Shown here: positions 18,206 through 30,887 of the stretch, in pieces
How the letters are laid out: each line of letters begins with the position of its first letter
Numbering within the stretch: position 1 is the first letter of the stretch
From: Arthrobacter zhangbolii
Lineage (GTDB): Bacteria; Actinomycetota; Actinomycetes; Actinomycetales; Micrococcaceae
Reading direction: 5' to 3'
Assembly (NCBI RefSeq): GCF_022869865.1
Contig: NZ_CP094984.1
Span: forward strand, 1,860,001 to 1,924,000
DNA: 64,000 bases
Program-made: the position numbers and the translations under genes
The notes under the pieces: generated by a model
What the model was told of the DNA's origin: nothing
Database searches by the model: none
The model's input: the letters and a program-made list of their open reading frames with translations, nothing else

Positions 18206-21022
18206 ATGAGCACGCACAGCAACGGCCGCGGCGCCGAACACGTCTCCGCGGAACAATCCCTTCCCGCGGAGCCGGGGGTTCTCGCGACCCCCTGGCTCTA
18301 TCCCGCGGAAGAGGTCGCGGCAGAGCTCGGCACCGATCCGTCCACGGGACTGGACGGGGATGAGGCCCGGGAGAGATTGGGACGCTACGGACCCAACGAA
18401 CTGGACGAGGGCAAAAAGGTGCCGGCGTGGCGGAAAGTCCTCCGGCTGCTTTCGGACCGGCTGACCATCGTCCTCATCATTGCCGCCGTCGTCAGCGCCG
18501 TGGTATCCCGGGAATGGGAAACCCCGGTGGTGATTCTCCTGGTGATCATCCTGAATACCACGCTGAACTATGTGCAGGAGCAGCGCGCCGAATCCAGTCT
18601 CGAAGCACTGCGGAATGCCGCGGTGGATGCCTGCCGGGTCCTGCGCTCGGGCACGCAGGCCACGGTGGAGCGCACCGCCCTGGTACCCGGGGACATCGTG
18701 CTGCTGGAAGCCGGAGACACCGTTCCTGCCGACGGCCGGCTCCTGGTAGCGGTCCGGCTGCAGGTGGCCGAAGCGGCGCTGACGGGGGAGTCCCGGCCCT
18801 CCAACAAGGTGGCCGGGGCTCTCTCAGACCCGCAGCTCCCCGTCGCGGACCGCACCAACCTGCTGTACATGGATACCGATGTCACCCGCGGCCGGGCAGT
18901 GCTGCTGGTTACCGGCACCGGAATGAACACCCAGATCGGTACCATCGCGGATCTGCTGGGCAGCACTGCCGAGGAAAAAACCACGCTGCAGCGCAGCATC
19001 GACCAGCTCGCCCGCGTCCTGACCTACATTGCCCTGGCAGTAGTGACCCTGGTGTTTATCCTGGGGCTGCTGCGCGGGGACAGCTGGCAGGACCTGTTCC
19101 TGACGGCCGTGTCCCTGGCAGTTGCCACCATTCCGGAAGGGCTGACCGCCGTCGTCGCCTTCACCCTGGCCATGGGCGCCTCCCGGCTGGCGGCCCGCGG
19201 CGCCATCATCAAACAGCTCGCGGCCGTGGAAACCCTCGGCAGCACCTCGCAGATCTGCACCGACAAGACCGGCACCCTGACCCTGAATGAGATGACGGTC
19301 CGGCGGCTGTATTCCCCGTCGGGCAGCCGTTTCCGGGTTACCGGATCCGGCTACTCCACCGAAGGCAAGATCCTCAGCCCGGACGGGCGGTCCGTACCGG
19401 CGTTCATCGAGGCGTACCTGGCCATGGCGCTGTGCAACGACGCCTCCGTGGAAGACGGGCGCCTCACCGGTGACCCCACCGAAGGGGCGCTGGTGGTGCT
19501 GGCCGAAAAGGGCGGCATTGACGTGGCCGGGGCCCGGGCCACGCACCGGCGCATCGCCGAGGTTCCGTTTGATTCCGACTACAAGTTCATGGCCACGTTT
19601 AACCGCGCTGAGTCCGCGGGAGCGCCCGTGCACTGCAACGTTAAGGGTGCACCCGGCGTCGTCCTGGAACGCACGGCATTTGTGATGGGCGCGGACGGGC
19701 CGGAGCCGCTGGACGCTCAGGAGCGGGCACGCATTTCGGCCGACGTCGACTCGCTTGCCAAGGCGGGACTGCGGACCATGGCGGTGGCCGGACGGGTTCT
19801 GGACGCACCGTTGCCGGGAAGCCCGGAGGGGCTGTTTGCGGAGGCGGCGAATCTGGTCCTCTACGCCATTGTCGGAATCCTTGACCCGCCACGGCAGGAG
19901 GCCGGCGAAGCCATCTCCCGGGCCCAGGCTGCCGGTATTGATGTGCACATGATTACCGGAGACCACCTGGTCACCGCCTCGGCGATTGCCAGGGACCTGG
20001 GTATTGGTGGCAGGGCCGTGGCCGGTTCGGCACTTGATGCCATGGATGACGAGCAGCTGCAGGCGGAGGCTCCCGGGCTGGGGGTCCTGGCCAGGGTCTC
20101 ACCCGAGCACAAGATCCGCGTGGTCAAGGCGCTGCAGGCTGACGGTTATGTAGTGGCCATGACCGGCGACGGCGTGAACGACGCACCGGCGCTGAAACGG
20201 GCGGACATTGGCATCGCCATGGGCATCACCGGCACCGATGTTTCCAAGGGTGCAGCGAGGATGATCCTCACTGATGACAACTTCGCCACCATCGTGGCGG
20301 CCGTCGAGGAAGGCCGGGGCATTTATGACAACATCGTGAAGTTTGTCCGCTTCCAGCTCACCACGGCGTGGGGGTTCGTGCTGATCTTCCTGGCCTCGGC
20401 GACCTTCGGCTTTGCCGGCGGGGCCCCGTTCACCGCGCTGCAGATTCTGTGGGTGAACATCATCATGGACGGCCCGCCCGCCCTGGCCCTTGGCGTGGAC
20501 AAAACGGATCCGGGCGTGATGAACCGTCCGCCCCGGCGGGCAGGGGAACCGCTGCTGACCGGACGGCGGATTGCGGTACTGGCCATGCTGGGCATAGTCA
20601 TGGCCATCGGCACCTGCGCCGTGCTGGTCAGTGCTCCCCGCCTGTTCCCCGAGAGCGCCGGCAGTGCTAACTTCGCCACCACCATGGCCTTTACAACCTT
20701 CGTTTTCTACCAGGTGTTCAATCTGCTCAATGTGCGTTCGGAAACCGGTTCCGTTTTTTCGCTGCTGACCTTCACCAACCGGGCCATCTGGGTTTCGCTG
20801 GCGGCAGTGGTGGTTCTGCAGATACTGGTGGTACAGCTGAGCATTTTCGAAGGCTTTTTCGACACGGTGCCGCTGACCTCCGCGCAGTGGTTCCTGTGCA
20901 TCGCAGTGGGCGCTACCGTGCTGGTGGTTTCGGAAATCGGGAAGGCGGTTCAGCGGCTGGCCACACGGCGCCGGCACACCGGAGCCGGCGGCACCGGCCC
21001 CGTGCCCGTCCTACCAGGGTGA
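18206..21022 (+). CDS. cation-transporting P-type ATPase (P2-type)
   Basis: 938 residues with all P-type landmarks: actuator LTGES, phosphorylation site ICTDKTGTLT with D353, MITGDH, and the hinge TGDGVNDAPALK. The PEGL motif ATIPEGLTAVVAFTLAMGA in M4 and the N-terminal cation_ATPase_N domain (ELGTDPSTGLDGDEARERLGRYGPNEL) place it with the Ca2+/Mg2+-like P2 group rather than heavy-metal pumps. It exports or imports cations at the membrane. AGGGGAAG precedes the ATG at 18206. Its stop overlaps the convergent SDR gene end by 12 bases. Confidence 0.92.
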   Translation: MSTHSNGRGAEHVSAEQSLPAEPGVLATPWLYPAEEVAAELGTDPSTGLDGDEARERLGRYGPNELDEGKKVPAWRKVLRLLSDRLTIVLIIAAVVSAVVSREWETPVVILLVIILNTTLNYVQEQRAESSLEALRNAAVDACRVLRSGTQATVERTALVPGDIVLLEAGDTVPADGRLLVAVRLQVAEAALTGESRPSNKVAGALSDPQLPVADRTNLLYMDTDVTRGRAVLLVTGTGMNTQIGTIADLLGSTAEEKTTLQRSIDQLARVLTYIALAVVTLVFILGLLRGDSWQDLFLTAVSLAVATIPEGLTAVVAFTLAMGASRLAARGAIIKQLAAVETLGSTSQICTDKTGTLTLNEMTVRRLYSPSGSRFRVTGSGYSTEGKILSPDGRSVPAFIEAYLAMALCNDASVEDGRLTGDPTEGALVVLAEKGGIDVAGARATHRRIAEVPFDSDYKFMATFNRAESAGAPVHCNVKGAPGVVLERTAFVMGADGPEPLDAQERARISADVDSLAKAGLRTMAVAGRVLDAPLPGSPEGLFAEAANLVLYAIVGILDPPRQEAGEAISRAQAAGIDVHMITGDHLVTASAIARDLGIGGRAVAGSALDAMDDEQLQAEAPGLGVLARVSPEHKIRVVKALQADGYVVAMTGDGVNDAPALKRADIGIAMGITGTDVSKGAARMILTDDNFATIVAAVEEGRGIYDNIVKFVRFQLTTAWGFVLIFLASATFGFAGGAPFTALQILWVNIIMDGPPALALGVDKTDPGVMNRPPRRAGEPLLTGRRIAVLAMLGIVMAIGTCAVLVSAPRLFPESAGSANFATTMAFTTFVFYQVFNLLNVRSETGSVFSLLTFTNRAIWVSLAAVVVLQILVVQLSIFEGFFDTVPLTSAQWFLCIAVGATVLVVSEIGKAVQRLATRRRHTGAGGTGPVPVLPG

Positions 21023-22462
21023 GGGCTTGTAGTCCTTGAGGAAGACACCGTACTGGTCTTCACCGTTTTCGCCCATCACAATCGGGTCATAAACCCGTGC
21101 CGCGCCGTCCACCAGGTCCAGCGGGGCGTGGAAGCCCTCCTCGGCCAGGCGGACCTTGGTGGGGTGCGGACGCTCGTCGGTAATCCAGCCGGTATCCACC
21201 GCCGTCATCAGGATCCCGTCGGTGTCCAGCATTTCCTGGGCACTGGTGCGGGTGAGCATGTTCAGTGCCGCCTTGGCCATGTTGGTGTGCGGATGGCCGG
21301 GGCCCTTGTAACGGCGGGAGAACTGTCCCTCCATGGCGGAGACGTTCACAATGTACTTCCGGCGGGCGGAGGACGCCGCCATGGCCGGGCGGAGCCGGTT
21401 CACCAGCAGGAACGGGGCGGTGACGTTGCAGAGCTGCACTTCGAGCATTTCCAGCGGATCCACCTGGTCCACCACCTGCGTCCAGCTGTTGATCGGTGCC
21501 GTGTCCGGCACCAGGCCGCCGGCGTCGATGGCCGTGCCGGCCTCCATCCGTGCCAACGAGGAGGAGCCCGCGGTCAGCGCCAGGGAGGTGACGGCGTCGG
21601 CGGCCAGCACCGGGTGTGCCGCCACGGAACCGGCCAGCGCGGTGGGGTGCGCGTCATAGGTGTGGCCGAAGGTCACCAGCTCGGGCATGGGGCCGTCCGG
21701 CAGCGGGGCCAGTTCGGCCTCGGTCAGGGGACGGTAGGCACCGGCGGAACGGCGCACGGTCTGGGCCGCGTTGTTGATCAGGATGTCCAGCGGGCCGGCA
21801 TCCGAAACCGATTCCGCCAGGGAGATGACCTGGGCCGGATCACGCAGGTCGATGCCGACAATGCGCAGCCGGTGCAGCCAGTCCGCGGAATCCTCCATGG
21901 CCGCAAACCGCCGGGCGGCGTCCTTGGGGAAGCGGGTGGTGATGGTGGTGTGTGCCCCGTCGCGCAGCAGCCGCAGGGCAATGTACATGCCGATCTTGGC
22001 CCGTCCGCCGGTCAGCAGTGCACGGCGGCCGGTCAGGTCGGTGCGGGCATCACGCTTGGCATGGCTGAACGCTGCGCATTCGGGGCAAAGCTGGTGGTAG
22101 AAGGCGTCCACCACGGTGTACGGCTGCTTGCAGATGTAGCAGTTGCGCGGCTTCAGCAGCGTTCCGGCAGAAGGCCCATGGGCGGCGCTGGTCAGCTGTG
22201 CGCCGCGGGTCTCGTCGTCGATCCGGTCTGCCGCACCGGTGGCCGTCAGGGCGACGACGGCGCGGTCCGCCTCTGCGACGGCGCTGCGCTTTTCGTTCTT
22301 CCGGTGCTTTTTCACTGACTTGAACATCTTGGCGGTTGCCCGCCGGACCGCGACGTAATCCGGGTTCTCCTCATCCAGGACGTGGATGGAGGCCAGGACG
22401 CGCAGGGCGGTCTGGATCTCTTCCGGGCTTAGTTCTTCCGGGCTCAGTTCAGGGGTGCTCAT
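21011..22462 (-). CDS. SDR-like protein with N-terminal zinc ribbon
   Basis: 483 residues. A helical N-terminus is followed by a Cys4 zinc-ribbon-like motif (C108, C111, C126, C129) and then a Rossmann domain with TGGRAKIG (151-158) and ILINNAAQ. Catalytic Ser is kept (S375 in VNVSAMEG) and Lys is kept (K397 in TNMAK), but the position of the catalytic Tyr is Thr393. The nearest Tyr is Y385. An insert of about 100 residues separates NNAA from the Ser strand. Function unknown; reduced or altered catalysis is possible. AGAAGG supports the ATG at 22462. Confidence 0.82.
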   Translation of the reverse strand: MSTPELSPEELSPEEIQTALRVLASIHVLDEENPDYVAVRRATAKMFKSVKKHRKNEKRSAVAEADRAVVALTATGAADRIDDETRGAQLTSAAHGPSAGTLLKPRNCYICKQPYTVVDAFYHQLCPECAAFSHAKRDARTDLTGRRALLTGGRAKIGMYIALRLLRDGAHTTITTRFPKDAARRFAAMEDSADWLHRLRIVGIDLRDPAQVISLAESVSDAGPLDILINNAAQTVRRSAGAYRPLTEAELAPLPDGPMPELVTFGHTYDAHPTALAGSVAAHPVLAADAVTSLALTAGSSSLARMEAGTAIDAGGLVPDTAPINSWTQVVDQVDPLEMLEVQLCNVTAPFLLVNRLRPAMAASSARRKYIVNVSAMEGQFSRRYKGPGHPHTNMAKAALNMLTRTSAQEMLDTDGILMTAVDTGWITDERPHPTKVRLAEEGFHAPLDLVDGAARVYDPIVMGENGEDQYGVFLKDYKPSPW

Positions 22463-22629: not shown

Positions 22630-23892
22630 CTAAACGGTTTCCCGGGGTGCTTCCGCCGGGATCCGCTGGCCCTTGCTGAGCACCGTCAGCCCGGATTCCG
22701 TCACCGTAAACCCGCGGCTCAGATCGAGTTCGCGGTCCACGCCAATGGTGGCACCTGCCGGGATCCGCACGTTCTTGTCAATGATGGCCCGGCGGATAAC
22801 GGCACCCTCACCCACGTGCACCTTATCCAGCAGGACAGAGTCGGTGACCTCGGCATTGGCGGAAACGTAGACGTCCTGGGCCAGCACCGAACCGGTGACC
22901 GTTCCGCCGGAGATGACCGTCCCGTCGGAGACAATCGAATCGAAGGCCGTCCCCGCCTGCTCCGACGCGCTGCGGACAAACTTGGCGGGCGGGGAGATGC
23001 TCTGCCGGGTATAGATGGGCCACTGCAGGTTGTACAGGTTGAACGCCGGCAGCGGGGAAATCAGGTCCATGTTGGCGTCGTAATAGGAGTCCAGGGTGCC
23101 GACGTCGCGCCAGTACTGATGGTCGCTTCCGGTAGCCCCGGGGATCACGTTGGTAGTGAAGTCGTACACCGCGGCATCGTTGCGCTCCACGAAGTAGGGA
23201 ATGATGTCCCCGCCCATGTCGTGCTTGGTGATCAGCCGCTCGGCGTCGGCCTGCAGTGCGGAGACCAGGGCATCGGTGTTGAAGACGTAGTTGCCCATGG
23301 AGGCCAGGAAGCTGTCCGGGTCATCGGGCAGGCCGGGCGTGGAATCGGGCTTCTCCACGAACGCACCGATCCGGCCGGGGTTCTCCGGATCGGTTTCGAT
23401 AACGCCGAACTGGTCCACCAGGTGCATCGGCTGCCGCACCGCGGCAACGCTGACCGAGGCGCCCGAGGCGATGTGTGCCTCAACCATCTGGGAGAAGTCC
23501 ATCCGGTACACATGGTCGGCACCAATAACAACCACGATGTCCGGCTGGGCATCATCGATCAGGTTCATGGACTGGTAGATCGCGTTGGCGCTGCCGAGGA
23601 ACCAGCTTTTGCCCACGCGCTGCTGCGCCGGCACGGAAGCCACATAGTTCTGCAGCTGGGTGGACAGCCGCCAGGTCTCGGAAATATGCCGGTCCAGGCT
23701 GTGGGATTTGTACTGCGTGAGAACCACTATCTGCAGGTACCCGGAGTTCACCAGGTTCGAAAGTGCGAAGTCGATGAGGCGGTAACGCCCCGCGAAGGGT
23801 ACCGCGGGTTTTGCCCGGTCTGCCGTCAGGGGCATCAGGCGTTTGCCCTCGCCGCCTGCAAGCACTACTGCCAGGACCTTCTTTGGCGCCAT
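22630..23892 (-). CDS. glgC: glucose-1-phosphate adenylyltransferase
   Basis: 420-residue ADP-glucose pyrophosphorylase: an N-terminal nucleotidyltransferase domain with [13 protein letters not shown] and [10 protein letters not shown], then a left-handed beta-helix with hexapeptide pattern at the C-terminus. It makes ADP-glucose from glucose-1-phosphate and ATP for glycogen or maltose-1-phosphate synthesis. AGAGG precedes the ATG. Divergent from the glycosyltransferase that uses its product, with 78 bases between. Confidence 0.96.
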
Positions 23893-25282: not shown

Positions 25283-27388
25283 CTACTTCTTCTTGCCGGA
25301 CTTCTTCTTGGCCGCCTTCTCGCGGGCAATCAGGACCTTTTCATCCACCGGTGCGGCACCGCTGGCACGGAGCAGCCGCTGGTATTCAAAGGCCTCATCC
25401 TGGCGTGCTTTTTCAGCGCCGGAAGCGATGCTGGCGCGCAGGTGCTCCTGGCCGTATCCGAAGGAGTCCACCAGATCCAGGGCGTGCGGGCGAATCTTGG
25501 CCAGCAGGCGGTTGATGTACGGGCCGAGGGTGCGCGCACGCTGGGCCGAGAGGCGCCCGTTCATCAGGTACCAGCCCAGGTTCTTTTCAATCAGGCACAG
25601 CCCGAAGAGGTCCCGGACCCAGGTCATGACCTGGCGGGTGCCGGCGTCGTCAATGCGGTCCAGTGCACGGGTGAAACCTTCCCACTGCAGCAGTTCGGCG
25701 TGGGCGCGGGCGGCTTCGATAAGGGCGTGCTGGTTCTCGTTGAAGATGGCCGCCCCCTTTTCCTTCGGCAGGCCGCGGGCCGCCTTCAGGGCACCGGCTA
25801 CCTCCGCCACCATGGTGTTCACCCGGTCAGCGAGCAGATCATGCTGGGCACGGGGATCCCGGAGGGCAATCGCGGACTTCTTCTCCGAACCGGAATCCGC
25901 CACGGTCTGGGCGATCCGCCGCAGGCCCGTGCGGTGCACTGTGACATCGGCCGCCTGGCCCACAACGTAGCGTGCCAGCACGCCGAAGTCCGCTCCTGCG
26001 AATTCCTTTGCATAGTCGGCCAGCAGGCGCTTGGCCACCAGCTGCAGCAGCACCGTATTGTCACCTTCGAAGGTGGCGTAGATATCCAGATCGGCCCGCA
26101 GCGCGGTGAACCGGTTCTCCGCCAGGAAGCCCGCACCACCGGTTGCCTCGCGGCATTCCTGCAGGGTTTCCAGGGCGTGCCAGGTGGAGAGGGACTTCAG
26201 GGCGGCGGCAAGGGTCTCCAGGTCCTGGCGGTCCTCGTCGGTGTCGTGCGCGCCGGAGAAGACGTCGTCGAACTTCTGCAGCAGCTCGTCGTGCGCGAAG
26301 GACGCAGCGAACGTGGTGGCCAGCAGCGGCAGCAGCCGGCGCTGGTGCTGCTGGTAGTCCATCAGCACCTCTTCGCGGATATCCGAGGCGCCATTGAACT
26401 GGCGGCGCTCGGTGCCGTACTGGATGGCTGTCTTCAGGGCCAGCTTGCTGGCCGCCACCGCGGCGCCGTCCAGGGACACGCGGCCCTGGACGAGGGTGCC
26501 GATCATGGTGAAGAAGCGCCGGCCCGGGCTGGAAATGGCGGAGGTATAAGTGCCGTCCGCTGCCACATCGCCGTACTTGTTGAGCAGGTTGGTCCGGGGA
26601 ATGCGGACATTGGAGAAGTGCAGCCGGCCGTTGTCGATGCCGTTCAGGCCACCCTTGACGCCGTCATCCTCGCCGCCGACACCGGGCAGGAAGCCGTTGT
26701 CGTCGCGGAGTTCAACGTAGAAGGCGTGCACGCCGTGGTCAACGCCCCGGGTTATGAGGTGGGCAAACACCACGGCCGCCTTGCCGTTGACCGCGCCGTT
26801 GCCGATGTAGTCCTTCCACGCCGCGCGGAACGGTGTGTTGATGATGAACTCTTCCGTTGCGGCGTCGTACTCCGCAGTGGTGGCGATGCTCGCAACATCT
26901 GACCCGTGGCCGGTCTCCGTCATGGCGAAGCAACCGGGAATCTCCAGGCTCATGATGCCCGGGAGCCACTTCTCGTGGTGCTCCCGGTTACCCAGGTGCA
27001 GCACGGCGGAGCCAAAGAGGCCCCACTGGACGCCTGCCTTGATCTGCAAGGAGGGGTCGGCGGTGACCAGTTCCGCGAAACCGGCAACATTGCCGCCGTG
27101 GTTGTCCTCGCCGCCCACGTACTTGGGGAAGGCACGGTGCACGGCACCGGCGTCCACCAGGATCTTCAGCTGTCCCATGACCCGTTCGCGGTGCTCGTGG
27201 TGGCTCAGCCCGGCCGGGGTATGCAGGGCATCCTGGCCTGCCAGCGCGCGGGCCTGCAGGCGGATATCCGCCCACTTGCCCAGCAGGGCGCGGCTGAGGG
27301 AATCGGTGTCCACGACGGCTGCGTCATTGTCGCTGATAGCGGCACTTGCCGGGAGTTGGCGTTCCGTGGTTGAAAGCGTTTGCGTCAT
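25283..27388 (-). CDS. acyl-CoA oxidase/dehydrogenase family enzyme
   Basis: 701-residue flavoenzyme, long like the acyl-CoA oxidase branch rather than the 380-residue dehydrogenases. Motifs are CFAMTETGHGSDV, the FAD-contacting PGRRFFTMIGTLVQGRVSL, and ECREATGGAGFLAENR with AFEGDNTVLLQ-type sequence (YATFEGDNTVLLQLVAK), where the Glu is the expected catalytic base. It oxidises acyl-CoA to 2-enoyl-CoA in beta-oxidation. The C-terminus ends in a Lys-rich tail. Its start overlaps the tetR stop by four bases. Confidence 0.9.
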   Translation of the reverse strand: MTQTLSTTERQLPASAAISDNDAAVVDTDSLSRALLGKWADIRLQARALAGQDALHTPAGLSHHEHRERVMGQLKILVDAGAVHRAFPKYVGGEDNHGGNVAGFAELVTADPSLQIKAGVQWGLFGSAVLHLGNREHHEKWLPGIMSLEIPGCFAMTETGHGSDVASIATTAEYDAATEEFIINTPFRAAWKDYIGNGAVNGKAAVVFAHLITRGVDHGVHAFYVELRDDNGFLPGVGGEDDGVKGGLNGIDNGRLHFSNVRIPRTNLLNKYGDVAADGTYTSAISSPGRRFFTMIGTLVQGRVSLDGAAVAASKLALKTAIQYGTERRQFNGASDIREEVLMDYQQHQRRLLPLLATTFAASFAHDELLQKFDDVFSGAHDTDEDRQDLETLAAALKSLSTWHALETLQECREATGGAGFLAENRFTALRADLDIYATFEGDNTVLLQLVAKRLLADYAKEFAGADFGVLARYVVGQAADVTVHRTGLRRIAQTVADSGSEKKSAIALRDPRAQHDLLADRVNTMVAEVAGALKAARGLPKEKGAAIFNENQHALIEAARAHAELLQWEGFTRALDRIDDAGTRQVMTWVRDLFGLCLIEKNLGWYLMNGRLSAQRARTLGPYINRLLAKIRPHALDLVDSFGYGQEHLRASIASGAEKARQDEAFEYQRLLRASGAAPVDEKVLIAREKAAKKKSGKKK

Positions 27389-28119
27389 TGCGTGTCCTTC
27401 GTGGTGGTTGGGGGCGTATCAGAAGAAAGTCGGGGGAGGGGCGAACGCCCCTGGTCATGGCCGATGCCGTCAAACAGCCACGCCGTGAGCTGATCGGTCA
27501 TCTGCTCTTCCGTGGGCTTGTCGGGGCTGGGCGGTGAAGCGATCCAGCGTTCACCGGCGGCACGGATCATGCCCAGTGCCGCCGAGGGCCAGTACTGGGC
27601 GGTGGCGGTGGCCTGCGGAGGAACCTCCCGGCCGGCCAGGTACTGCCGCATGGCCGAATCCATCATGGAGGTGATGGTTTCGAAGAAATGTGACAGCGGT
27701 GTTTCCGCCTGCTGCTCCGGTCCGCCCTCGGCAAGACGGCCGGTGACAAACAGGTAGACGTTGGGAGAGGTCTCGGCCATCTGGAGGTAGGCGGAGACCA
27801 TGGCGCGCAGGCCCGAGCGCGGCGAGTCAGCGGTGCGGCCGGCGGCGAGGATCTTGTCCTGCATACGGGCGACCGCCATCTCGCCCATGGCTTGCTGCAG
27901 ACCGGCCTTATCACCGAAATAGCGGTAGAAGACGGACTTGGATGTCCCCGAGGCTGCCGCAATTTCCTCCATGGACGCGGAGTAGCCCAGGGTATGCACG
28001 GCGCCGCGCGCCGTTTTGATCAGGGTACGGCGTCGCTCGGCCCGGTGGGCTTCCCAGCGGAGCGAGCGGCCGTCCCCGGCCGGGGGAGAAGAGGACGGAT
28101 CCTCCATTGCGTTGTTCAC
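27385..28119 (-). CDS. TetR/AcrR family regulator of the fatty-acid module
   Basis: 244 residues; HTH at about residues 30-75 (GYSASMEEIAAASGTSKSVFYRYFGDKAGLQQAM), then a helical ligand domain. The GTG start lies three bases from a perfect 27-base palindrome, so autorepression and control of the divergent thiolase operon are likely. Translationally coupled to the downstream acyl-CoA oxidase gene. The ligand is probably an acyl-CoA, by context only. An ATG four codons downstream (28107) is an alternative start. Confidence 0.9.
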   Translation of the reverse strand: MNNAMEDPSSSPPAGDGRSLRWEAHRAERRRTLIKTARGAVHTLGYSASMEEIAAASGTSKSVFYRYFGDKAGLQQAMGEMAVARMQDKILAAGRTADSPRSGLRAMVSAYLQMAETSPNVYLFVTGRLAEGGPEQQAETPLSHFFETITSMMDSAMRQYLAGREVPPQATATAQYWPSAALGMIRAAGERWIASPPSPDKPTEEQMTDQLTAWLFDGIGHDQGRSPLPRLSSDTPPTTTKDTQ

Positions 28120-28121
28120 GA

Positions 28122-28148
28122 TACCCAGCGTATCAGGTACGCTGGGTA
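28122..28148. promoter_or_regulatory. TetR operator with overlapping divergent promoters
   Basis: Perfect inverted repeat TACCCAGCGTA-TCAGG-TACGCTGGGTA. Because of the symmetry each arm carries TACGCT: on the minus strand (28127-28132) seven bases before the tetR GTG, and on the plus strand (28138-28143) preceded at 17 bases by TTCACG (28115-28120) as a possible -35 for the thiolase operon. Repressor binding would mask both promoters. Confidence 0.75.
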
Positions 28149-28212
28149 ACAGTAACTACCGTCACACCGAACCGTTCCACCCACCCCCCTGGATTCCAAG
28201 GAGAGCGACGAC

Positions 28213-29544
28213 ATGGCTGCACAGCCCGAACCCGCCCGCGCCACGCCCGCAAACGGCACCACCGCACCCCGCAAGGCCGTAGTGATCGGCGGCAACCGCA
28301 TTCCCTTCGCCCGCTCCGGCGGCAAGTACACCTACAGCTCCAACCAGGACATGCTTACTGCTGCCCTCGACGGGCTGATTGCCCGTTTCGGCCTGCAGGG
28401 CGAACGGATCGGCGAAGTGGCCGGCGGCGCCGTCCTGAAGCACTCCCGCGATTTCAACCTCACCCGTGAAGCGGTCCTGGGTTCGGCACTGTCGCCGGAA
28501 ACCCCCGCCTACGACGTGCAGCAGGCCTGCGCCACCGGCTTGGAGACCGTGGTCAGCCTGGCCAACAAGATCAAGCTGGGACAGCTGGAATCCGCCATTG
28601 CCGGCGGCGTGGACTCCGCTTCGGATGCCCCCATCGCAGTCAGCGAAGGTCTGCGCCGGGCCCTGCTGGACCTCTCACGTGCACGCACCACCAAGCAGAA
28701 GCTCGCCGCCGTCGCGAAGATCCGGCCCAAGGACCTGTCCCCGAACGCCCCGACCACGGGCGAACCGCGCACCGGTCTGTCCATGGGCGAGCACCAGGCA
28801 CTGACCACGGCGCAGTGGAAGATTACCCGGGAGGCCCAGGACGAACTGGCGTTCAACAGCCACCGGAACATGGCCGCAGCCTATGACCGCGGTTTCTTTG
28901 ATGACCTGGTGACCCCGTACCGCGGCCTGGCCAAGGACGCCAACCTGCGTCCGGACACCACCATGGAAAAGCTCGCCAAGCTCAAGCCCGTCTTCGGCAA
29001 ATCCCTGGGCGACGCCGCAACCATGACCGCCGGCAACTCCACCCCGCTGACCGACGGCGCCTCCGTGGTACTGCTTGGCTCCGAAGACTACGCACGCGAA
29101 CACGACCTGCCGATGCTGGCCAACGTTGTGGACGCCGAAGCCGGTGCCGTGGACTTTGTGCACGGCAAGGACGGGCTGCTGATGGCTCCGGCCTTCGCAG
29201 TGCCCCGCCTGCTGGCCCGCAACAACCTCACCTTCGATGACTTCGACTTCTTCGAGATCCATGAGGCCTTCGCCGGCACCGTCCTTTCCACCCTGGCTGC
29301 CTGGGAGGACGAGGAGTTCTGCCGCACCCGCCTGGGACTGGATGCACCGCTGGGAAGCATCGACCGCAGCAAACTCAACGTCAACGGCTCCTCACTGGCA
29401 GCCGGCCACCCGTTCGCTGCCACCGGCGGCCGCATCGTCGCCTCGCTGGCGAAGATGCTGCATGAGAAGGGTTCGGGCCGCGGCCTGATTTCCATCTGTG
29501 CTGCCGGCGGACAGGGCCTCGTCGCGATCCTGGAGGCGCGCTAA
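28213..29544 (+). CDS. acetyl-CoA C-acyltransferase (thiolase)
   Basis: 443-residue thiolase of the FadI/FadA2 type. Nucleophile C106 is in QQACATGLET, the His motif is EIHEAFAG, and the second Cys C429 is in SICAAGGQG. It cleaves 3-oxoacyl-CoA with CoA. First gene of a three-gene operon; AAGGAG precedes the ATG. From recall the order thiolase, FabG4-like, HtdX-like parallels M. tuberculosis Rv0243 to Rv0241c. Confidence 0.95.
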   Translation: MAAQPEPARATPANGTTAPRKAVVIGGNRIPFARSGGKYTYSSNQDMLTAALDGLIARFGLQGERIGEVAGGAVLKHSRDFNLTREAVLGSALSPETPAYDVQQACATGLETVVSLANKIKLGQLESAIAGGVDSASDAPIAVSEGLRRALLDLSRARTTKQKLAAVAKIRPKDLSPNAPTTGEPRTGLSMGEHQALTTAQWKITREAQDELAFNSHRNMAAAYDRGFFDDLVTPYRGLAKDANLRPDTTMEKLAKLKPVFGKSLGDAATMTAGNSTPLTDGASVVLLGSEDYAREHDLPMLANVVDAEAGAVDFVHGKDGLLMAPAFAVPRLLARNNLTFDDFDFFEIHEAFAGTVLSTLAAWEDEEFCRTRLGLDAPLGSIDRSKLNVNGSSLAAGHPFAATGGRIVASLAKMLHEKGSGRGLISICAAGGQGLVAILEAR

Positions 29545-29546
29545 CC

Positions 29547-30887
29547 ATGACTGATACCTACCTCAAGCTGGTCAACACCGGCTTTACCAAGGACCTGTCC
29601 AAGAAGCTCGGCCTGCCCCGCCCGGCCATCCTTCGGCGCTTCGATCCGTCGAAGCCGCTGGTCCCCGGCCCCGTGCTGGTGCTGGGCAAGGGCGAGTCCG
29701 CCGATGACCTGGCACAGCTGCTGCTGTCCTGGGACCAGGATGTCCGCCGCCACGCCATGCCGAAGGAAAAGCTCGGCGCCATCCTCATTGTGCTCGACGA
29801 CGCCGCGGCCCCTGCCGATCTGGGCGAGCCGGTGCTGGCTGCCGGTGCTGCCCTGCGCGACCTCGCCCCGGGCGGCCGCGTAGTGACTGTTTCCCGTCCC
29901 GCTGCCGAGGCACAGGACCCTGCCGCAGCAGCAGCGCGGCAGGGCATTGACGGGACCCTGCGCTCCATCGCCCACGAGCTGCGCGGCGGTGCCACTGCCA
30001 ACGGCATCGTGCTGGCCAACGGGACACAGGCTACTGCTCCCTCGGTGGCCGCCGCCCTGCGTTTCCTGCTGTCGGGCAAGAGTGCCTACGTCAGCGGCCA
30101 GTTCGTCACGGTCGGTTCGGATGCGGGAACACTGCCGGCGGACTGGAATGCGCCGCTGGCAGGCAAGGTGGCGGTGGTGACCGGTGCTGCCCGCGGCATT
30201 GGCGCAGCCATTGCCAAGGTCCTGCACCGCGATGGCGCGCAGGTCATTGTGGTGGATGTTCCGGCAGCCGGTGAACAGCTGGCGAAGGTGGCCAACGAAA
30301 TCGGCGGCACTGCCCTGCAGGTGGACATCACCCGCGAAGACGCCGCTGACCGGATCCTCGCCCACGCCGCCGAGCGCTACGGGCACCTGGACATCGTGAT
30401 CCACAATGCCGGGATCACCCGCGACAAGCTCCTTGCCAACATGGACGAATCCCGCTGGGGCTCGGTCATCGCAGTGAATATTGCCTCCCAGCTGCGCATG
30501 AATGAAACCTTTCTGGCCTCGGACGGTTTCAGCCCGGAGGGCCGGATTGTGTCGCTGGCCTCCACCAGCGGAATCGCCGGCAACCGGGGCCAGACCAACT
30601 ACGCCGCTTCAAAGGGCGGCGTGATCGGCATGGTCCGGGCCACGGCACCGCTGCTGGCTCCGCGCGGCGGTTCCATCAATGCCGTTGCCCCGGGATTCAT
30701 TGAAACGGACATGACCGCAGCCATCCCGGCACTGACCCGTCAGGTGGCCCGCCGGCTGTCCAGCCTGCAGCAGGGCGGCCTGCCGGTGGATGTGGCAGAG
30801 ACGATCGCCTTCCTTGCCTCCGATGCGGCTGCCGGGGTCAACGGCCAGGTGGTCCGGGTGTGCGGCCAGAACATGGTGGGCGCATGA
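29547..30887 (+). CDS. FabG4-like 3-oxoacyl reductase
   Basis: High-molecular-weight FabG of 446 residues: an N-terminal flavodoxin-like domain (about 1-205) lacking catalytic motifs, then a classical SDR domain with TGAARGIG (about 212-219), NAGITRDKL, Ser in LASTSGIAG, and Y352/K356. Mycobacterial FabG4 uses NADH and acts on long 3-oxoacyl-CoA. It starts two bases after the thiolase stop. Confidence 0.93.
   Translation: MTDTYLKLVNTGFTKDLSKKLGLPRPAILRRFDPSKPLVPGPVLVLGKGESADDLAQLLLSWDQDVRRHAMPKEKLGAILIVLDDAAAPADLGEPVLAAGAALRDLAPGGRVVTVSRPAAEAQDPAAAAARQGIDGTLRSIAHELRGGATANGIVLANGTQATAPSVAAALRFLLSGKSAYVSGQFVTVGSDAGTLPADWNAPLAGKVAVVTGAARGIGAAIAKVLHRDGAQVIVVDVPAAGEQLAKVANEIGGTALQVDITREDAADRILAHAAERYGHLDIVIHNAGITRDKLLANMDESRWGSVIAVNIASQLRMNETFLASDGFSPEGRIVSLASTSGIAGNRGQTNYAASKGGVIGMVRATAPLLAPRGGSINAVAPGFIETDMTAAIPALTRQVARRLSSLQQGGLPVDVAETIAFLASDAAAGVNGQVVRVCGQNMVGA

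Follow-up and report, generated by a model that had tools for sequence, protein, structure and literature searches.

The window analyzed here is a stretch of 64,000 nucleotides from Arthrobacter zhangbolii (contig NZ_CP094984.1, positions 1,860,001 to 1,924,000). Its minus strand carries a gene whose product joins a Cys4 ribbon to a short-chain dehydrogenase/reductase (SDR) domain, here called the zinc-ribbon SDR. The frame of 483 amino acids (aa) starts at 22462, its last sense codon ends at 21014, and the stop codon occupies 21011 to 21013; an AGAAGG Shine-Dalgarno-like stretch precedes the ATG at 22462. The protein is laid out as an N-terminal basic helix, the Cys4 ribbon, and an SDR domain with an insert of ca. 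91 residues. Judging from alignments, it belongs to a family that has lost both the catalytic Ser and the catalytic Tyr of SDRs, with Ala376 and Thr393 in their places, and has kept Asn346 and Lys397. The family is real and conserved, and none of the libraries searched has a model specific to it; it is a variant of the SDR fold, not a new kind of system.

The main alignment comprised 157 rows (155 distinct cores, with the window's own gene counted twice), 138 of them near and 19 distant, the latter with tblastn identities of 42 to 51% to the window protein. As an unbiased check, a 43-residue ribbon profile was used as the sole query. This gave 97 strong places, from which 50 loci were read (the 30 top-ranked ones and 20 picked to cover most of the weakest), and 41 of their 49 distinct cores were new to the set. 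SDRs of the same genome were collected by a PF13561 search that hit 40 places; 30 loci were retrieved, of which 28 had sufficient length for alignment. Eighty relatives, kept out of 590, came from searches with peptide patterns including HPHTNMAK; since this pattern biases T393 in those 80, whole-length or ribbon profiles were used elsewhere. The features are given below, with their basis in parentheses.

21011 to 22462, minus strand: the zinc-ribbon SDR gene, encoding 483 aa (range includes the stop codon)
22250 to 22426, minus strand: N-terminal helical part, residues 13 to 71, with a basic stretch, KSVKKHRKNEKR (helices 13 to 28 and 34 to 71 in the AlphaFold2 [AF2] model; sequence)
22076 to 22141, minus strand: Cys4 ribbon core C108-x2-C111-x14-C126-x2-C129 (C in 157/157 rows and 50/50 ribbon-selected loci)
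21989 to 22012, minus strand: coenzyme loop T151-G-G-R-A-K156-I-G158, with Lys156 for the central Gly of TGxxxGxG (aligned with same-genome SDRs)
21932 to 21934, minus strand: Arg177, first residue past strand 2, a position favoring nicotinamide adenine dinucleotide phosphate, NADP(H) (strand 171 to 176; R in 157/157)
21458 to 21763, minus strand: insert-bearing stretch, residues 234 to 335 (spacing; invariant Q234, R238, Y243, E250, D313, D320, N325, and W327)
21425 to 21427, minus strand: Asn346, the Asn of the tetrad, kept (matches the Asn of VN in same-genome SDRs; N in 157/157)
21335 to 21337, minus strand: Ala376 at the catalytic Ser position (alignment of hidden Markov models [HMM-HMM]; A in 157/157 and 50/50)
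21293 to 21307, minus strand: loop K386-G-P-G-H390 ahead of helix F, with K386 and H390 invariant (K386 lies within the four-residue insertion R384 to G387)
21284 to 21286, minus strand: Thr393 at the catalytic Tyr position (alignments; T in 157/157 and 50/50)
21272 to 21274, minus strand: Lys397, the catalytic Lys, kept (alignments; K in 157/157)

Among the 28 same-genome SDRs, the catalytic columns held S in 25, Y in 25, and K in 27 sequences, respectively. The HMM-HMM alignment against this set (probability of 99.6%, E value of 5e-25) brought A376, T393, and K397 onto these three columns and left R384 to G387 as a four-residue insertion, and a profile alignment to FabG 4nbu from the PDB gave the same register at all three. 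The spacing from A376 to T393 was 17 in 156 of the 157 rows, compared with a commonest Ser-to-Tyr spacing of 13 in the same-genome SDRs (19 of 24). A MAFFT alignment misplaces the active-site stretch of an ordinary SDR (L065), and the register was taken from the profile alignments. Checked as a tetrad, N346 and K397 were retained, and Ser and Tyr were replaced by A376 and T393, in every row of the main alignment. A preliminary description of this DNA had already placed the catalytic Lys at K397 and a Thr, Thr393, at the Tyr position, and both assignments held up; the family alignment that it called for found Thr393 and the four Cys invariant. Its statement that the active-site Ser remains as S375 was off by one, given the profile register and a strand E that ends at 375 in the structural model described below. 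As a candidate for the catalytic Ser, S375 was rejected on the profile alignment and on its variability (S in 43, T in 6, and A in 1 of the ribbon-selected loci). Within the same genome, SDRs without Tyr at the usual column are L168 (Tyr-x6-Lys), L181 (SASAK), and L190 (also without the Lys), so that Tyr-less SDRs are not unique even here.

Residues invariant throughout the main alignment were R154, K156, R177, D205, N231, Q234, R238, Y243, N346, N373, A376, E378, K386, H390, T393, N394, K397, D423, T424, W426, E430, and others. Along the same lines, all 50 ribbon-selected loci kept the four ribbon Cys and ran on into an SDR domain with A376, E378, K386, H390, T393, N394, and K397; Asn373 was replaced by Gln in some of them. 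Some near-type members (L130, L132 to L136, and L241) have HPNTNAAK instead of HPHTNMAK, which means that H392 is not strictly required, whereas H390 is invariant. The ratio of nonsynonymous to synonymous substitution rates (dN/dS) of the gene was 0.03 to 0.11 in 12 comparisons with same-genus copies, indicating strong purifying selection, and its conservation roughly equaled that of its neighbors GlgC and GlgA (18 loci). Together, these values make the observation more than chance.

The four Cys had been described as a zinc-ribbon-like motif, and this stood: they form two CxxC knuckles at a fixed spacing (15 from C111 to C126 in 157/157 rows), and we infer that they may hold zinc. No curated Pfam zinc-ribbon family was above the cutoff for the window protein, the best being DZR_2 with 12.6 bits against 27. 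Among 62 rows, DZR_2 matched 11 (best E value, 0.015) and Spt4 matched 10 (best E value, 0.016). The ribbon profile matched PDB entries at E values of 0.025 and worse, these being half-ribbon pieces of C2H2 fingers and others.

Above their Pfam cutoffs were SDR families only, PF00106 with 62.9 bits (cutoff of 26.6; best stretch, residues 148 to 236) and PF13561 with 48.8 bits (residues 334 to 428). The NCBIfam models listed (25 of 154) were all far under their cutoffs, the best at 57 bits against 215, and among the PDB sequence matches of the family profile that were listed (60 of 670), none starts before residue 131, leaving the ribbon unspanned. Membership in the SDR superfamily is given by the PF00106 match, the SDR fold of the model, and the invariant D205 and N231. 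The TGxxxGxG motif of classical SDRs is absent from the 157 rows, the window protein having TGGRAKIG with the invariant Lys156 in place of the central Gly. From N230 to N346 there are 116 residues (87 to 145 in the family) versus 25 to 32 in the 28 same-genome SDRs. The insert noted in the preliminary description is therefore real, with ca. 91 extra residues instead of the 100 given there.

The AF2 model, built from 62 rows, had a mean predicted local distance difference test (pLDDT) score of 86.1 and a predicted template modeling (pTM) score of 0.85, with strands and helices in the normal SDR order, strand E ending at 375 and helix F starting at 391. A first model from 23 close rows, with pLDDT values of <50 at residues 376 to 406, was discarded. 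The top match in VIA-align was NADP-bound tropinone reductase I (Z of 24.8, root mean square deviation of 2.3 Å over 230 residues), and the 49 further rows listed were all within 2 Z units of it. With other SDRs so close in Z, this list, which covers residues from ca. 132 to 144 on and says nothing on the N-terminal part, does not single out a nearer functional match. As far as the alignments go, the coenzyme half is broadly preserved. R177 directly follows strand 171 to 176 of the model, and Arg as the first residue past strand 2 favors NADP(H), according to excerpts of PMC11614110. The position of Arg177 and the predicted fold together lead us to infer that NADP(H) would be used.

The explanation that we tentatively favor, and regard as possible rather than established, is that the protein belongs to a distinct and strongly conserved family of NADP(H)-dependent SDRs whose acid-base chemistry has moved to H390 and K386. 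Hydride transfer with NADP(H) would still be performed, Lys397 and Asn346 would keep their usual SDR part in holding the ribose and the water chain, and acid-base or charge stabilization would come from an invariant set in the longer loop between strand 5 and helix F, above all from His390, joined by Lys386 and Glu378. In the Tyr-x6-Lys enoyl reductases, the catalytic Tyr lies seven residues ahead of the Lys. H390 is favored because it occupies this very place, although the family is not of the Tyr-x6-Lys enoyl-acyl carrier protein reductase type, the residue seven before K397 being an invariant His and not Tyr. H390 and K386 are thus candidate acid-base groups, as read from sequence. The invariance of Asn346 and Lys397 in 157/157 rows is unlike a decayed active site, and the invariant charged residues R238, E378, K386, H390, and E430 suggest a polar or anionic substrate. 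The ribbon and the basic helix would probably serve as a module for docking or recognition; they may bind nucleic acid or protein, the kind of role that the preliminary description had raised for the protein as a whole. Rewired catalysis, also proposed there with Y385 as its agent, is backed more strongly than it was then, since the Ser is lost besides the Tyr, with E378, K386, H390, and T393 invariant; Y385 itself dropped out (see below).

Some results weigh against this explanation. The loss of both Ser and Tyr equally fits a noncatalytic protein, the pLDDT is lower in the loop (mean of 66 for residues 381 to 390), Lys156 in place of the central Gly might weaken coenzyme binding, and no neighbor gene is kept across lineages (88 loci), hence there is no pathway pointer. 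A more far-reaching version, a new catalytic class of SDRs in which both active-site hydroxyls are gone, His390-Lys386(-Glu378) serves as the acid-base group, and the substrate sits on a protein or nucleic acid recognized by the helix and ribbon, seems unlikely to us.

The main rival, a pseudoenzyme that binds NADP(H) as a redox signal, with the ribbon and basic helix binding protein or nucleic acid and no turnover, would agree with Ala and Thr at the Ser and Tyr positions in all 157 rows. It would also agree with a ribbon that is always fused: the 97 places (E value of ≤1e-11) are all in frames of at least 446 aa, and each of the 50 read reaches the SDR Lys. Regulatory proteins with the SDR fold do exist (NmrA type). 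However, the NmrA-like family PF05368 was matched by only 1 of the 62 rows of the A3 set, which includes two ordinary SDRs, with an E value of 0.052, and Asn346, Lys397, and the alternative polar set are all invariant, so that we consider a pseudoenzyme rather doubtful. Substrate- or Thr-assisted catalysis would need no new catalytic residue, as the substrate would give the proton or Thr393 and Lys397 would form a weak relay. The invariant, hydroxyl-bearing Thr393 suits this idea, as does the precedent of SimC7, with intramolecular proton transfer in place of a catalytic Tyr in the excerpts of its description, but by itself it leaves the invariance of K386 and H390 unexplained, and we judge it improbable.

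The remaining proposals look for another Tyr. Catalytic Tyr residues displaced upstream of S/TxxxK are found in 2,4-dienoyl-coenzyme A (CoA) reductases, which, like the window family, carry a hydroxyl-bearing residue in the Tyr column ahead of xxxK. Y385 might play this part, being Tyr in 138/138 near rows and also in the divergent locus L229; the window's genome, moreover, holds a Ser-for-Tyr SDR (L181). Its position, however, is F, L, M, N, S, or R in 19/19 distant rows and N, R, or K in 13 of the 50 ribbon-selected loci, all of which keep A376, E378, K386, H390, T393, and K397; one of the 13, L210, has an otherwise near-type motif. The displaced Tyr thus has no family-wide counterpart, and the window protein was far under the cutoff of NCBIfam PRK07677, compared as a 2,4-dienoyl-CoA reductase. 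Already contradicted for the family, Y385 was rejected as the catalytic Tyr, and we find such catalysis scarcely credible. A single change accounted for the presence of Y385 in a 64-row tree, in which L137 and L143 are long branches whose placement is hence unsure. The only Tyr residues invariant in the main alignment are Y109, in the ribbon, and Y243, at the insert start, and Tyr243 might fold over the pocket as a proton donor. It is His in 3 of the 50 ribbon-selected loci, a weak point against it since the preceding position, as aligned, holds Tyr in all three; even so, we consider this donor very unlikely.

Compared with classical SDRs (FabG and tropinone reductases; PF00106 and PF13561), the family shares the fold, the strand-helix order, D205-L206, N230-N231-A232, Asn346, Lys397, and the NADP-type Arg. 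It differs in having Ala376 for Ser, Thr393 for Tyr, and Lys156 for the central Gly, and it adds the insert, the longer loop between strand 5 and helix F, the N-terminal helix, and the Cys4 ribbon. Loss of the Tyr alone is already known in SDRs, as excerpts of three reports attest. BcSDR of Burkholderia cenocepacia, likewise an NADP-binding SDR with the catalytic Tyr replaced, has an LxxxK motif, with Leu144 for Tyr across many related species; in contrast to the window family, it has Ser131, 13 residues ahead of the Leu, and neither a ribbon nor the word “zinc” occurs in the excerpted text (PMC11614110). SimC7, with Ser-Ile-His, is a functional SDR without the catalytic Tyr, for which a substrate-assisted mechanism was proposed; in the passages at hand, it differs in retaining the Ser and losing the Lys along with the Tyr (PMC5039031). 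Isopiperitenone reductase has Glu238 for Tyr and still reduces, with an altered chemistry, ene reduction; the Ser and Lys are described as conserved in the mechanism of a related enzyme, and the excerpts mention no ribbon (PMC4988501). That SimC7 and isopiperitenone reductase, both Tyr-less SDRs in print, are still reductases supports the NADP(H)-dependent enzyme that we favor. Neither a zinc-ribbon SDR nor an Asn-Ala-Thr-Lys pattern with a Cys4 ribbon was found in a literature search that left most subscription journals outside.

Upstream of the gene, on the same strand, lies glgC (22630 to 23892) and beyond it, divergent, glgA; on the downstream side, a cation-transport ATPase gene stands tail to tail with it. 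The neighbor survey covered 88 loci, in 86 of which a simple frame picker retained the SDR (L073 and L092 were lost). In 20 of the 88 loci, glgC was nearby, and 18 of these 20 were the window's own or came from records named Arthrobacter, Paenarthrobacter, Pseudarthrobacter, or Micrococcaceae. The other two, L027 (labeled Sporosarcina) and L044 (labeled as an Acidobacteria metagenome-assembled genome), have an Arthrobacter-like gene order; their organism labels look wrong, and we took them as misassigned contigs. No neighbor family occurred in more than 20 of the 88 loci, and the largest outside the glgC group (c7) reached 11. An operon with glgC and glgA was therefore rejected; confinement of glgC to nearly one lineage, with no widely shared neighbor, points to lineage synteny without a functional link. 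An antiphage role was also rejected, with no PADLOC match for two proteins. Elsewhere in the window (25283 to 30887), acyl-CoA oxidase-like, thiolase, and FabG-like genes cluster beside a frame that is TetR-like by eye and had no Pfam match at an E value of 1e-10.

Of 296 genomes from the class to which the window belongs, 88 had a strong ribbon-profile match (E value of ≤1e-11); one additional match (E value of 0.007, in a 32-aa frame) was treated as chance. The family is thus common yet apparently unstudied, with an active site in which two of the four residues deviate from the SDR rule in every row read. As an enzyme, it would show how an SDR can work with neither Ser nor Tyr; should it not be one, it would be a widespread, ribbon-bearing regulator that binds NADP(H). 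The gene was carried by 24/24 further genomes sampled within the genus, by 1/14 from other families of the order, by 16/247 in the class around G411, and by 37/396 phylum-wide, own genome counted. Whole-genome searches centered on the window's phylum, with other phyla hardly sampled, and the family is known so far mainly in Actinomycetota. Two copies occurred in nine genomes, all of one large-genome genus (g22). The copies in one of these, G061, are L132 and L143, one near-type and one divergent without Y385; reading covered just the divergent copy in seven more genomes and neither copy in G812. No relatives were confirmed in the viral_contigs collection. In a plasmid collection, four records had a family member: Streptomyces (two), Tsukamurella, and Deinococcus. 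The Tsukamurella member (L138) lies near an annotated nucleoside hydrolase gene and a VapC-type toxin-antitoxin pair.

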